From IMG/VR virus record IMGVR_UViG_3300010160_000231, positions 1 through 23,304 of that record: a stretch of 23,304 bases of DNA; one strand, 5' to 3'. Source of the DNA: a virus. Made by a program: the position numbers and the translations under genes. Shown piece by piece: positions 7,645-23,304 of the stretch. The notes beneath the pieces were generated by a model. The model was not told the DNA's origin and did no database searches. It saw only the letters and a list, made by a program, of their open reading frames with translations. Positions within the stretch are counted from its first letter, which is position 1, and every line of letters starts with the position of its first letter.

Positions 7645-8183
7645 GTCGAATTAATACGCTATCTTCTGCAGCTATTAAAGCTATGTTCTCGTCTGAGACG
7701 GATCAACAGCTTATTATGTTATTTACTATCTTTGACCCTAATGGATCTACAGATCCCGCAGCAGCAACTACTGCGGTTAGGCTAGCAGACGGCTATACGG
7801 ATCGACTGTCTGCTACAACAGACACAGATGTAGTATACGGGGTTACTAGCCGTAGTAATGAGTTTGTATTTTTACCAATGCAACTTAATCTACCTGCCGA
7901 ACAAGAAACAGGAGTAGGAGAGTGTTCCATTACATTAAACTATGTAACTCCAGAAGCAATTGAGCTTATTAGAACACATTTATTTTCCCAAACCAAGGTA
8001 TTAATAGAATTAGTATTATCCGGAACGCCTAATTATGTAGAAGCTAGTTTTTCTGAATTCTACATAACTAATGTTAACTATAATGCTGAGACTATTAATT
8101 TTAGCTTAAGTATGGTTAGTTATAACAAAGAACCATTTCCAAGTTTTAATTTTACACCTAGTTATTTTCCAGGATTATTCTAA
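7641..8183 (+). CDS. DUF1833-type minor tail protein (gpL-position)
   Basis: A 180-aa protein that fits the DUF1833 tail family well. It has RLADGYTDRLS, VYGVTSRSNEFVFLPMQLNLP, SITLNYVTPEAIELIR, VLIELVLSGTPNYVEASF and the signature end EPFPSFNFTPSYFPGLF. These proteins sit between the WP.LPQ protein and the NlpC/P60 protein in many phages, the position of lambda gpL, and are thought to belong to the distal tail or tip. No catalytic motif is visible. An insertion of about ten residues rich in Asp, Ala and Thr (GSTDPAAATTA) lies near residue 37, a common variable loop. It overlaps the preceding gene by ATGA and shares one base with the next (TAATG), so it is probably translationally coupled on both sides. 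Confidence 0.85.
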   Translation: MSRINTLSSAAIKAMFSSETDQQLIMLFTIFDPNGSTDPAAATTAVRLADGYTDRLSATTDTDVVYGVTSRSNEFVFLPMQLNLPAEQETGVGECSITLNYVTPEAIELIRTHLFSQTKVLIELVLSGTPNYVEASFSEFYITNVNYNAETINFSLSMVSYNKEPFPSFNFTPSYFPGLF

Positions 8184-11100
8184 TGAATTATGATAAATAT
8201 ATCGGATTACCTTACCTTGAAAATGGCAGAACTGAAGCGGGTGTAGACTGCTGGGGATTAGCTCGACTATATTATAAAGATCAGTTTAATATTGATTTAC
8301 CAAGTTATACTGAAGAATACAATGGCGGGCAAGATCCTGCCATTGTTTCTATAATTAATGCACATATTGATAACTGGAAAGAAATAACTGCGCCTAATAT
8401 TGGAGACTTGTGTCTTTTTAATATACTGGGCGAGCCTACCCACGTGGGTATATATGTAGGTGATAACAAGTTTTTACACTGTCGTGAGAACATGGATTCA
8501 GTAATTGAATCACTAGACAATGTAAAGTGGAAGAATCGCTTCCAAGGATTTTATAGATACACTAAACAAGCACAAATTGAGACTATTGGAGCACCGCATC
8601 CACTAAGAACTAGTGTATTTAGAGACTGGACTGTTGAAGGTACAACAGTACAAGATCTAGCAAATTATGTAAAAGAAAAGTACAATGTTAGTACTGTTAT
8701 TGCAAATAAAACTATAATTATGATTAACGGTATAGTTGTTCCTCAAGATGTTTGGGAAACAACTGTACTACAAAAAGGACAACAGGTATCCTATAAAACA
8801 GTAGCCGAAGGAGCCTCGACTAGACGGTTAGTATTAATGCTTGCAGTTGTTGCTGCAGCTGTAACTTTTGGTCCCGAGGTAGGAGCTTTCTTTGAGGGTA
8901 CAGAAGTAGCTACAGTTAGTAAAGCTTATTCTGCTGTAGGTACTATGGCCATTAATATGGCGGGTATGGCATTAGTTAATGTTATTGCTCCTGTTCGCCA
9001 ACCTTCTACTAATGATGCCGGAAGTGCATCTGGACTTAATTTGTTTACAGGTGCAAGTAATCAAGCAAATAAATTTGGAGCTATCCCCGTTGTACTAGGT
9101 AAAGTACGTTTTACAGGTATGTTAGGAGCTACACCTTATGTAGAATCATTGCAAGATACAAGTATCTTAAATACTGCTATTGTATGGGGATTTGGCCCAC
9201 TTGATGTTAGTGATATTTGTATTGGTGGAAATGCAATAGAAACTTATTATGATGGACTACCTTCCACAGTATTACGTCCAGTTACATTAAAAGGAATTGC
9301 TGGAGAATCAACTGCTGATTTTGATAATCTATATGGTCGCGATGTTGAGCAACAATTTAAAAATGTTGAATTAGTAAATAATGCAATTGATGGTAATGCA
9401 TGGACTGAAGTAACACTTAATCAAAACGCTGACGCTATAGATATTGCTTTTACCTTTCCAGAAGGCATGCGTAAAATTAATGTTAAAGATGGAAAAGCAA
9501 GCGCAACTCCTTGTCAAATAGAGCTTCAAACACGACCTTATAGTACTCTATCATGGGACGCAACAACAAGCACTACTAGTTTAGGGATATATAAAAATGG
9601 CAATGCAGATGCCTCCACTTTAGATGCCGAGGCATATACTTCTATACTAACACCCCCAGCAGATCCAGATTCTGAAGCTAATTTATATAGATATACTATA
9701 TTTTGTTTGAGTCCTAGTGGTGGTGTTGCTAGATTTGACGGTCAAGTTACAGACACATTTGGTAGTAATGCTAGCGCATGGCTACAAGATAAATACAACA
9801 GCACTAGTTATAGCTACTTATTAGGAATAGACAAAAATTGGAATTACTTACCTACTATTCCAGCAGGATATATAAAACTATATACTGTGTATCAAACTAG
9901 TAACGGCACAGTAACTGTTGATAGTACCGCTATAAACAGTTATGCAGGTGTGCTAGGATTAACTCAAACAGTTACACCATTACAAGTTACTGAACTTAAC
10001 GGGGATTGGGTTGACTCAGCAACAAAGAAAATAAGTATTAAAGCTGGTAAACTATACTCTGAAACTGCTACAACTGTGGCACCTGGTGCCAATGAAACGA
10101 TCTGGACAACAAGACAGATAACTACTATTGGTTCTACTGTAGTTATACCTGCAAGTTATGGCAACTGGTGCAATCTATTAAAAAATACTTCTGTATGGTC
10201 TAGTAATAGCGGCCTTGCTGAATGGACACATACTGAGTCAAATGTAAATTTTCCGTACACTGGATATTACACTATTCAAGCAGCTGCAGATGATGAGGGT
10301 GAAGTATATATTGATGGAACTAAGGTTGCAAGTTTACCTAAAGGTGGGTATGGTAGTTATGTAGAAACTTCTGTTAAACTTACTAAAGGTTCACATACAA
10401 TAGTTATAGTAGGTAGAAACAGCCAAGGCGGATTAGCTGCTATAGGTGTTGTTATTGGTTTTACTGCAAATAGTGGGTTAAATATACGTGCAGCGGCTAA
10501 CACTATTATTACTTTTGGTACGTCTGGTTTCTATGAAAATAGAAAAGACGCTTTTAATTATGTACACCCTTTAGAAAATTTACCTCGTGGAAGGTATCAA
10601 ATACGTGTTAGACGCCTAACCAGTGATGAAACAGAAGACGAAACAGATTATCGTAAATATCATAAAGCAGTGTTAAATAACGTAACTAGTTACGATAGTA
10701 AATCTAGTCCAATGGTTAATCCTCCTGGATGTTATTTAGCTAAAACTGCCGTAAGGATACAAAGCACTAATAAAGTAAACGGTACTGTAGATGGTGTAAA
10801 TGCATTAGTGCAAACAATTACCTGGGATTATAATAGAGCAACTAGTTCTTGGACAGGGCCAAAACGCCCTACAAATAATCCTGCAAGTTTATTTTTATAT
10901 GTGTTAATGCACCCAGCTAATGCATTTAGGGTTACTAAGTTGTCCCAGCTTGATCTAACTAGTTTAACTGCTTGGCATAATTTTTGTAATCCTGTTCCAG
11001 TAACAGTTACTGCCGGAAGTTTTGTAATAGGTAAATATTATACTATTACAACCCCGGGAACTACTAGCTGGACTGCTATTGGCGCAGGATCTAGCAATAT

Positions 11101-12775
11101 TGGTGAGAGTTTTTACGCTACCGGAGTCGGTAGCGGAACAGGTACTGCTGTATATTGTCCAAAATATACCTATAACAGTATATTGACAAATACACAAAGT
11201 GTAATGGATACTCTAAGAGATATATGTGCAGCAGGATTAGCAAGCCCTACATATGTAGATGGTAAATGGGGTGTTGTAATAGATCAACCAAGAGCCTATA
11301 CAACTCAACATTTTACACCACATAATAGCTGGGGTTTTGAATCTACAAAAAATCTTCCTATATTACCGCACGCATTTAGAGTTACTATTCCAGATGAATC
11401 ATTAGCTTACCAAGCTAATGAGCTAATCATATATAACTATGGGTATGCTGCAACAGCAGCTAATGGTAAGAAAGCGGCAGAATTATTTGAACAACTTTCT
11501 TTACCAGGAGTAACAAATGCAGATCAAGCCACTAGACTAGCTAGATGGCATTTTGCACAAATTAAGTTGCGCCCAGAAACATACAGTTTAAATGTTGATT
11601 TTGAACAACTAGTTTGTACTCGCGGAGATTTAGTAAAAATTACTCACGATGTTCCACGATGGGGAACTGGTACTGGCAGAGTTAAATCTATCAGCGGAAC
11701 TGCAGTTACTCTTACAGAAGCAGCATACCTAGAAGTTGGAAAAACTTATACTATACTATTTAGAACAAATAATTTAAATAATTCTGGTGCTGGTAGCGTG
11801 ACAAAAACTTTGGCTGCAATTACAACTACTGGATATACAGACAGTATTACGTTAACATCTGCAGTTACTGGCAGCGATATTGTTGAAGCAGATAATTTAT
11901 TTATGTTAGGTGAAATTAATAAAACAACACAAGAATGTATTGTTTTAGCAGTAGAGCCAAGTAACAATTATAGTGCAAAATTAACCTTAGCAGATTATTC
12001 ACCACAAATATATACAGAAGATTTAAGCGGCTTATTAGTATTTAATGCTAATATCTCTAGTGTTAATACGGATTTGGTAAAAAACTCTATTACATTAGCC
12101 CCAATTATAAATGGTGTTAATAGTACCAGTCCATTAGCAGAACAACTATCTGAAGGTAACTATCAGAATATTGCTATTGCTTCTTTTTCAAATCCACCAA
12201 ATTTACCCGGTGTAGCAACAAAAGTACAATTTGATATAGTTAGAAGCGAAATATTATTTAATGACACTAGCCCTAATACTATATATATTGCAAACAAAGA
12301 AACTAGCGGGTTTACCTTTACTGGACTAACCTCTGACGTAGTGTACAAAATAAGAGCCAGATATTTAGATTCAACAGGCAAAATTGCAGGTCCATGGTCC
12401 GATATTTTTACTTTCTTAAATGATGGTAAAAATAGCAGTGCATCAGTAGCACCCGCATTGACTATGGACTTAGATCATACATTTATTGTAGCAAAACCTG
12501 CAGTAGTTACGCAAGGTACTGACTTTTTAACTTACGAATATAGATTATATAAAAACACAGGTGCTTCAGATTTTTGGGAATTAGATACTGCTGCAAATAA
12601 TATTAAAATTATTCGTAGTACTGGCGATGCTAGGTTTGACTTACGAGACCAACCAGCACCAAGAATTTCAGCAGCAGGGGTTACATATAGAGTAGCCTGT
12701 AGAACTGTAGACAGAACAAATAATTACAGTACTGCAAGTACTCTTGGAACAATAGTTGTTAAAACTATTATATAA
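8183..12775 (+). CDS. Tail tip protein: NlpC/P60 peptidase + gpI-like + gpJ-like fusion
   Basis: A 1530-aa fusion of parts that lambda encodes as K (C-terminal half), I and J. Residues 1-128 are an NlpC/P60 peptidase: Cys23 in VDCWGLARLYY, His87 in THVGIYVG and His99 in FLHC, a Cys-His-His set with the 12-residue His-His spacing of Spr. It should cut peptidoglycan cross-links during entry. Residues about 134-240 resemble gpI: a beta-grasp-like segment ending in a hydrophobic stretch (LMLAVVAAAVTFG). From about 270 on it is gpJ-like: FGAIPVVLGKVRFTGMLG, IVWGFGPLDVSDICIGG, then ASPTYVDGKWGVVID and RGDLVKITHDVPRWGTG. A PA14-like beta-sandwich (about 632-765) and a small Gly/Thr module (938-993) interrupt the J part. 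The end (about 1380-1445) is a fibronectin III-like domain. No JAMM domain is present. Confidence 0.88.
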   Translation: MNYDKYIGLPYLENGRTEAGVDCWGLARLYYKDQFNIDLPSYTEEYNGGQDPAIVSIINAHIDNWKEITAPNIGDLCLFNILGEPTHVGIYVGDNKFLHCRENMDSVIESLDNVKWKNRFQGFYRYTKQAQIETIGAPHPLRTSVFRDWTVEGTTVQDLANYVKEKYNVSTVIANKTIIMINGIVVPQDVWETTVLQKGQQVSYKTVAEGASTRRLVLMLAVVAAAVTFGPEVGAFFEGTEVATVSKAYSAVGTMAINMAGMALVNVIAPVRQPSTNDAGSASGLNLFTGASNQANKFGAIPVVLGKVRFTGMLGATPYVESLQDTSILNTAIVWGFGPLDVSDICIGGNAIETYYDGLPSTVLRPVTLKGIAGESTADFDNLYGRDVEQQFKNVELVNNAIDGNAWTEVTLNQNADAIDIAFTFPEGMRKINVKDGKASATPCQIELQTRPYSTLSWDATTSTTSLGIYKNGNADASTLDAEAYTSILTPPADPDSEANLYRYTIFCLSPSGGVARFDGQVTDTFGSNASAWLQDKYNSTSYSYLLGIDKNWNYLPTIPAGYIKLYTVYQTSNGTVTVDSTAINSYAGVLGLTQTVTPLQVTELNGDWVDSATKKISIKAGKLYSETATTVAPGANETIWTTRQITTIGSTVVIPASYGNWCNLLKNTSVWSSNSGLAEWTHTESNVNFPYTGYYTIQAAADDEGEVYIDGTKVASLPKGGYGSYVETSVKLTKGSHTIVIVGRNSQGGLAAIGVVIGFTANSGLNIRAAANTIITFGTSGFYENRKDAFNYVHPLENLPRGRYQIRVRRLTSDETEDETDYRKYHKAVLNNVTSYDSKSSPMVNPPGCYLAKTAVRIQSTNKVNGTVDGVNALVQTITWDYNRATSSWTGPKRPTNNPASLFLYVLMHPANAFRVTKLSQLDLTSLTAWHNFCNPVPVTVTAGSFVIGKYYTITTPGTTSWTAIGAGSSNIGESFYATGVGSGTGTAVYCPKYTYNSILTNTQSVMDTLRDICAAGLASPTYVDGKWGVVIDQPRAYTTQHFTPHNSWGFESTKNLPILPHAFRVTIPDESLAYQANELIIYNYGYAATAANGKKAAELFEQLSLPGVTNADQATRLARWHFAQIKLRPETYSLNVDFEQLVCTRGDLVKITHDVPRWGTGTGRVKSISGTAVTLTEAAYLEVGKTYTILFRTNNLNNSGAGSVTKTLAAITTTGYTDSITLTSAVTGSDIVEADNLFMLGEINKTTQECIVLAVEPSNNYSAKLTLADYSPQIYTEDLSGLLVFNANISSVNTDLVKNSITLAPIINGVNSTSPLAEQLSEGNYQNIAIASFSNPPNLPGVATKVQFDIVRSEILFNDTSPNTIYIANKETSGFTFTGLTSDVVYKIRARYLDSTGKIAGPWSDIFTFLNDGKNSSASVAPALTMDLDHTFIVAKPAVVTQGTDFLTYEYRLYKNTGASDFWELDTAANNIKIIRSTGDARFDLRDQPAPRISAAGVTYRVACRTVDRTNNYSTASTLGTIVVKTII

Positions 12776-21484: not shown

Positions 21485-23304
21485 ATGGCATCAATAATTA
21501 AGATTAAAAATTCATCGACAACTGGGGGAGTCCCGCTGGCCGGTAATCTCCAGCCCGGAGAATTAGCCATTAATACAGCTGATGGAAGAATATACTTTAA
21601 AGCATCTAACAACCAAGTAAAATATTTTAAAAATTTAGCAGATACTAAAGTTGATGATTTAGGTAATGTAACTATTACCAGTGTTGAAAATAATCAAGTA
21701 TTAACTTGGGATTCCGCAACACAAAAATGGACTAATAAAACACCAACTACTCCTACTACCGCTCTTACTGCTTTAACTGATGTAACTATTACTAGCATTG
21801 CTGATAAACAAGCATTAGTATATGATACTACATCTGCTAAATGGATTAATAGAACTGCTACTGTTGATAATTTAAGTAATGTAACTATTACCACTGTTAC
21901 AAATAACCAAACACTATCCTGGGATTCTTCTACACAAAAATGGGTTAATAAAACCCCAGTAACAGCTATTACAGGATTAAGTGATCTAAATATCATTAGC
22001 CCGGCTAATAATCAAGCTTTAGTGTACGATACTGCTTCTGCTAAGTGGATTAATAAAACTACTAGCGTTAATGATTTAGGTAATGTAACTATTACTAGTG
22101 TTGCAAACAATCAAACACTATCATGGGATACTGCTACTCAAAAATGGGTTAATAGAACTAATAGCGTTGATAATTTAAATAATGTAACTATTACCAGTGT
22201 TGCTGATAAGCAAGCTTTAGTATGGGATGCAGCTACACAAAAATGGATTAATAAAACTACTAGCGTTAATGATTTAGGTAATGTAACTATTACTAGTGTT
22301 GCAAATAACCAAGTACTATCATGGGATTCTGCTACTTCAAAGTGGACTAATAAAACTGCTGTATCAACGATTACAGGATTAAGTGATGTAACTATTACTA
22401 CTCCAACCAATAAGCAACTACTTGCCTATGATACAGCCACTTCAAAATGGATTAATAAAAGTACAAGTGTCGAAGATTTAAGTAATGTTCAAGTAACTTC
22501 TCCTATTGGTGGACAAGCATTGCTTTGGGATTCCGGTACTCAAAAATGGATTAACCAAGCCCCAGGCGGAACAGCGTTCCAAGCAAATACTAAAACTTTT
22601 ACTGCTGACGGAACTACGGTTGCGTTTACAATTGCATCAGGTTTAACAACAGAAAGTATATTAGTACACGTAGGCGGTATTTTACAAGAAGCAAAAGTTG
22701 GGACTAATAATAACGATTATTATGTAAGTGGCAATAGCGTAATATTTACAACCGCACCCCCTTCTGGCCTCAAAATCATTATCAAAGAATTAACAGGACA
22801 TTTGGTTACTGCAGGTTTAGAAGGACCTCAAGGACCCGCAGTAAGTTTTGACGGAATCGGTCAAGCATTAGTACCATCACTAGATCAAGTATATGATTTA
22901 GGTTCTCCTACTAAACGTTGGAAAACTGGATATTTTTCTTCAAACACTATTGACTTAGGCGGAACACCTATTAGTGCTGAGAACGGCTTTTTAGTTGTTG
23001 CTGGTAACAGTATTGGTTATGGTGCTACAGGTCCAACAGGTGCTACAGGTCCACAAGGACCAGCAGGTCCAGGCTCAACTGTTCCAGGCGGTCAAGGTAT
23101 TCAAGGTGAAACAGGTGGACCCGGTCCAACAGGTCCTGCGGGCGTTGACGGACTACAGGGTATACAAGGACAGCAAGGTGTAGAAGGCCCAACAGGCCCA
23201 ACAGGCCCAACAGGTTCACAAGGTATTCAAGGTATTCAGGGTCCAACAGGCTCACAAGGTATCCAAGGTATCCAAGGTATCCAAGGTATCCAAGGTATCC
23301 AAGG
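21485..23304 (+). CDS. Tail fibre protein 2, partial, with collagen-like end
   Basis: It starts at ATG 21485 behind AGGG (21475-21478) and is still open at the window edge after 606 codons, so the 3' end is missing. Order: N-terminal attachment module ([32 protein letters not shown], about 1-45) as in fibre 1; nine copies of a 31-34-residue LSDVTITS..NKQ.L.YD repeat ending KWINKT (56-359); a compact beta domain with [28 protein letters not shown] and [15 protein letters not shown] (about 360-440), common in phage fibres; a short shaft segment [18 protein letters not shown]; then collagen-like Gly-X-Y from 513 to the edge. Such layouts give a long flexible trimeric fibre with a receptor-binding tip. 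The tip itself is beyond the window. Confidence 0.85.
21650..22561 (+). repeat. Nine tandem DLGNVTITS...KWINKT repeats in fibre 2
   Basis: Residues 56-359 are nine degenerate copies of about 34 residues, consensus DL.NVTITS(V/P)..NQ.L then (S/V)(W/Y)D.AT.KW(I/V)NKT. Two subtypes alternate loosely: one reading [10 protein letters not shown], the other [11 protein letters not shown] tenth copy is in the 87-aa gene upstream (19165-19428). Confidence 0.9.
23021..23304 (+). repeat. Collagen-like Gly-X-Y array with perfect 9-bp tandem repeats at the edge
   Basis: Encodes [18 protein letters not shown], a short break, then further GPT, GIQ and GPA triplets. The last 47 bases are five perfect GGTATCCAA units (23258-23302) plus GG, encoding GIQ triplets. 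The array continues beyond the window. Confidence 0.92.

Follow-up and report, generated by a model that had tools for sequence, protein, structure and literature searches.

A 48-residue module inserted in the gpJ-like tail-tip gene of this virus belongs to one homologous family that sits, with clean ends, in many unrelated virion proteins, has been gained or lost between orthologues, can nest and is under selection at the protein level. We regard it as a mobile promiscuous domain, with a probability of about 95%; the fuller proposition, in which domain character, mobility, protein-level conservation and spread by ordinary recombination all hold together, is also likely, at a lower degree of confidence. 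The module has no family in Pfam, PHROGs or NCBIfam, yet it recurs in nearly every part of the tailed-phage particle, from head to tail fibres, and naming it would aid the annotation of many environmental phage proteins.

The module in the gpJ-like protein

The window, that is, the whole stretch of 23,304 nucleotides analysed, is itself an environmental virus record and holds a single copy of the module. The initial annotation had described an interruption of about 56 residues in the gpJ core, and the segment is indeed there, at positions 10994–11161, in frame and bounded by WHNFCNP and K-YTYNSIL (VPVTVTAGSFVIGKYYTITTPGTTSWTAIGAGSSNIGESFYATGVGSGTGTAVYCP, 56 residues); the unit proper is shorter, a conserved core of 48 amino acids (VTAGSF...GTGTA, residues 942–989; Table 1), which scores 74.3 bits against the module profile (E = 1.2e-20). 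The host ORF is a homologue of gpJ, as judged by its match to the PHROG family “central tail fiber J” (E = 5.8e-74), Pfam matches to Phage-tail_3 and FNIII-A_GpJ, alignment of the profile of the gpJ region to lambda J over the hub domains (96.6% probability) and the match of the structural model of this region to the tail-tip structures of lambda, T1, and T5. The NlpC/P60 peptidase and ThiS-like domains that open the ORF (8183–8800) are encoded by separate genes near lambda J and are apparently fused here; close relatives of the ORF are of equal length.

Table 1. Window coordinates of the gpJ-like ORF, the module and its flanks.
Feature	Position	Strand	Basis
gpJ-like tail-tip protein, 1530 aa; N-terminal NlpC/P60 peptidase and ThiS-like domain fused to the J part	8183–12775	+	Pfam, PHROGs, profile match
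Upstream host flank SLTAWHNFCNP, end of a predicted helix (166–176 in the model)	10961–10993	+	Kept in filled and empty relatives
Extent of the predicted independent fold	11000–11155	+	AlphaFold2; strands also in the gpJ-context model
Mobile module core, 48 codons (VTAGSFVIGKYYTITTPGTTSWTAIGAGSSNIGESFYATGVGSGTGTA)	11006–11149	+	Profile match over 48/48 positions; sole stretch common to 100 otherwise dissimilar proteins
Downstream host flank YTYNSILTNTQSVMDTLRDICAAG	11165–11236	+	Kept in filled and empty relatives

The module is predicted to fold independently. AlphaFold2 modelled it alone, from 60 module sequences, with a mean pLDDT of 90.7 and a pTM of 0.72, placing strands at residues 3–6, 15–20, 39–41, and 51–54 of the 56-residue segment. 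The same strands, set between two helices, appear in the model of the gpJ context. That model is moderate in quality, with a mean pLDDT of 59, and served solely to establish element order and the resemblance to lambda J. In BFVD, 13 predicted viral proteins, mostly uncharacterised proteins of uncultured Caudovirales phages, contain the module fold with a probability of at least 0.98 and TM-scores of up to 0.93. Sequence searches of Pfam, PHROGs, NCBIfam, and the PDB with the module returned nothing better than E = 0.008, a value reached by YjbE, which we rejected as the family since it falls far short of the Pfam cut-off. Neither the module nor its consensus matched the Pfam Ig-like, FN3, or Big families, and there was no Pfam sequence match to BACON. 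A Foldseek search of the PDB with the module model gave only hits with E ≥ 6, and the cyclic-nucleotide-binding domain fold, the best VIA-align candidate (Z = 3.3), was not taken as meaningful. A plasmid search with the module found no match; the motif strings GTTDFTAIGA and GTTDFT were absent from open-access paper text, a weak result, as sequence strings are rarely printed.

Unrelated hosts, filled and empty sites

Two scans of viral sequences confirmed at least 486 and at least 529 matches, each among the 599 candidate stretches listed; the copies sampled follow the query patterns, and these counts are not measures of prevalence. In a collection of phage records, the module was found in only 3 of 50,697 entries, with low-complexity masking shortening the query and possibly hiding distant copies. 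Among these 3 records, the host is labelled “b-glycanase” in one, is a P22-gp10-like “stabilization protein” in another, and is a structural protein of a cyanophage in the third. Among cultured phages, cyanophage S-TIM54 carries the module. Once the module had been masked, the host ORFs fell into 35 groups, and an alignment of 100 hosts had the module as its only common stretch. By PHROG and Pfam matches, the hosts include tail tube, tail sheath, gp15-like sheath stabiliser, baseplate wedge, and major head proteins, connectors (SU10 adaptor, Ad2, Hc2, and Hc3), and tail spike, collar and tail fibres, gpJ, and P22-gp10-like proteins, encoded by sipho-, myo-, and podovirus-type genes on environmental virus contigs. 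PHROG matches were obtained for 28 of the 40 hosts scanned singly, and every match with a named function was structural, a share that may be inflated, as PHROG names are annotations and the profiles favour virion proteins over rare genes; a joint scan of 100 hosts added one amidase family to the matches.

The gpJ site itself occurs in 2 states. We gathered gpJ relatives using as query only the part downstream of the segment, took the best 80 of 339 confirmed relatives, and compared 63 distinct gpJ regions, 2 of them from cultured phages. The flanks were 57–65 amino acids apart in 34 of these regions (filled sites) and 3–17 amino acids apart in the other 29 (empty sites), with no intermediates. 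The relatives at least as close as 65% identity to the window over the region (65%–94%) all carry the segment at this site, whereas those at 54%–59% identity are empty and many other protein families carry it. The site is short in the Curvibacter and Bradyrhizobium phages, and likewise in lambda J, in which it corresponds to the short stretch between QYCDQ and RITCNAYLT. Two module subtypes occupy the filled sites, the short one of the window and a long one (GTTTQ..W..LAGT..Y..G..F) that is also present in a giant structural protein (locus L266). The module at the gpJ site of the window is old, inherited within one clade, and not a recent arrival. One relative (L161) is ~98% identical to the window gpJ gene over 300 nt downstream of the module and ~88% identical upstream, the module included; judging from the 2 sequences, the step in identity at window position ~11160 marks a breakpoint of recombination near the module’s 3′ end.

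The initial annotation had pointed to similar stretches in unrelated phage structural proteins and proposed a mobile domain cassette. The map of host contexts agrees, with many such families carrying the module, and together with the filled and empty gpJ sites it supports the cassette. Of the 2 findings that the initial annotation had named as jointly contrary to a cassette, one, presence at this site in every close gpJ relative, holds, and the other, absence from all other families, does not. The opposite view, that the module belongs to the normal make-up of gpJ and that its likenesses elsewhere reflect low-complexity Gly/Thr convergence, could draw on a composition in which G, T, S, or A make up 59% of residues and on the presence of the segment in all close gpJ relatives. 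It was rejected by reversed and shuffled controls: copies of the 2.5 million residues treated in either way yielded 0 matches, and the real set yielded 424. Invariant positions (Y, I, GxT, IGA, G, and F) over 180 distinct copies, the existence of empty gpJ sites and the confident common fold among the predicted viral proteins also argue against convergence, which we consider next to impossible.

Gain, loss, and nesting in phages and bacteria

Differences between close orthologues point to gain or loss of the mobile domain. Two orthologues that are 79% identical (L032 and L028) differ by 53 extra amino acids contributed by the module, a 77% identical pair (L048 and L126) has 3 modules in one member and 1 in the other, and in a third pair (L144 and L132, 68% identical) module presence differs within a region that is FN3-like by sequence. 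Copies also occur in tandem and scattered, with 7 in L099 and approximately 10 in L266, and in L284 a complete copy lies inside another (VTAGSFVPGKQYVIQSLGT...[AGSFVPGN...GTANYI]TDFTLIG...). A module copy in L266 is interrupted by a second module type (TGSISGTTL...GTYTI..SQTV), which is probably another mobile domain and of which the fetched loci contain 22 copies, spread over 17 ORFs; in L266, this type occupies residues 3470–3533 of the plus-strand ORF (TGSISGTTLTVT...GTYTISTSQTV). The module was internal in 93 of 104 copies located in complete ORFs. Recent transfer between host families was not seen among 190 distinct copies, the best between-family nucleotide identity being 77%.

A consensus scan of bacterial genome contigs identified 4 loci among 591 candidates. 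Flavobacterium filum encodes an FN3-containing surface protein with 2 tandem copies. The remaining bacterial copies, from metagenome bins and thus possibly mis-binned, lie in a 1112-aa protein (L240), in a pseudopilin-type protein that is MshP-like by eye and adjoins other prepilin-like genes (L241, 1979–2581), and in a PstS/DING-like phosphate-binding protein with E = 1e-17 to DING structures (L242, 2713–4362), a relative of which (L377) has an empty site. The FN3 surface, pseudopilin-like, and PstS/DING-like hosts are all exported proteins. Clear copies were present in 5 of 296 genomes around the Flavobacterium genome, itself counted, and in 1 of 299 genomes around the pseudopilin genome, namely that genome alone. 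The movement of domain-sized coding segments can be approached through the nested copies and through the pseudopilin and phosphate-binding hosts in bacteria.

Conservation as a protein, spread, and possible function

A DNA-pattern scan of viral contigs on both strands, without protein filtering, placed all 127 matches in newly fetched stretches in frame inside the module within an ORF; all 231 copies of the first set were likewise on the sense strand, most of them having been found by translated search. Between module copies, identity of synonymous codons was 0.39–0.45, with synonymous sites near saturation, against an amino acid identity of 0.60–0.68, and module GC3 tracked that of the host gene (r = 0.86). 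Among close gpJ relatives, dN/dS was 0.15–0.35 in the module versus 0.00–0.11 in the adjoining core, that is, several-fold higher and still well below 1. Folding of 8 copies as DNA revealed no shared palindrome: only the window copy was clearly better than its shuffles (local hairpin, z = −3.4), the other 7 ranging from −1.6 to +1.0. The hairpin of the window copy has an 8-bp stem of the GCTACCG/CGGTAGC type (11115–11135), which is absent from the other copies folded. The in-frame scan, the contrast between codons and amino acids, GC3, dN/dS, and the lack of a shared palindrome together indicate that the unit is conserved as a protein.

Rickettsia palindromic elements are in-frame insertions of ~150 nt in unrelated genes. 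The module resembles them in length, frame, and range of hosts, and a selfish DNA element of this kind, inserting anywhere and merely tolerated in proteins, would account for the unrelated hosts, the nesting, hosts with no obvious adhesive role such as the PstS/DING-like protein, and the hairpin of the window copy. We consider it very improbable, as the module, unlike those elements, occurs in one frame only, has no DNA structure common to its copies and keeps its amino acids while third positions approach saturation; the uniform sense orientation of the first set agrees, with the proviso about translated search.

For a mobile domain, we suggest that a self-folding beta domain of 48 residues would spread as a coding segment from one gene to another, unrelated one and persist wherever a loop of a virion or exported protein receives it. 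Transfer would proceed by ordinary phage recombination, illegitimate or through short homology, with no dedicated enzyme. A hitherto unrecognised process that delivers domain-sized coding segments, including at least 1 further module type, to exposed loops of surface proteins in phages and bacteria, keeping the reading frame and exceeding what chance recombination achieves, seems to us improbable. Ongoing shuffling of protein fragments has been documented in a survey of phage mosaicism (PMC10684548), which anticipates mosaicism, as yet unreported, among proteins that domain databases cover poorly; the present module has neither a Pfam nor a PHROGs entry.

Because the module model has no solved counterpart, function is argued by analogy. 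The module fits a decoration domain because its hosts span all parts of the virion and exported bacterial proteins, and because it is mostly internal, optional, and under weaker purifying selection than the host core. From its likely loop position, it would decorate the particle surface; in the window phage, its place would be the hub part of J, between 2 helices, at the point of a short loop in lambda J. The benefit may be contact of a weak, low-specificity kind with the surface of the host cell or the surrounding matrix. Parallels with phage Ig-like domains and with the carbohydrate-binding modules of 936 phages (PMC6669499) make such adhesion the likeliest benefit, and we put the chance that the module is adhesive at somewhat less than even. 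A less probable reading is a ligand-free spacer or stabilising domain, one that makes virion proteins stiffer or longer: few residues are charged (6%), the module is Gly/Thr-rich and forms tandem arrays in giant proteins, and it is inserted in sheath, baseplate, and connector proteins, in which cell contact is less obvious, but isolated loop copies, such as that in the window gpJ, add no length to the host protein, and several hosts also occur without the module.

Weak cell-surface binding has been proposed for phage Ig-like and FN3 domains (Fraser et al. 2006/2007, as cited in PMC10684548 and PMC6949934). Like those domains, the module is a promiscuous beta domain on many kinds of virion protein, present or absent among relatives. 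It differs in being approximately half their length, with 4 short predicted strands, in the lack of a Pfam Ig or FN3 match, and in nesting both inside itself and inside FN3-like regions. In lactococcal 936 phages, carbohydrate-binding modules occur in the neck passage structure, the major tail protein, and Dit, and 2 of them have been shown to bind host cells (PMC6669499); the module resembles these in its distribution over several virion proteins and may likewise bind host cells. The tandem BACON repeats of crAss-like phages, a small domain also found in bacterial surface proteins (PMC6949934), parallel the tandem arrays and bacterial copies described here; in contrast to BACON, the module has no Pfam match and occurs mostly as single insertions in unrelated proteins. 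The module turns the acquisition of small surface domains by phages, and the ligands of such domains, into testable questions. The window also encodes, at 21485–23302, a fibre-like ORF in which tandem repeats precede collagen-like GXY repeats.
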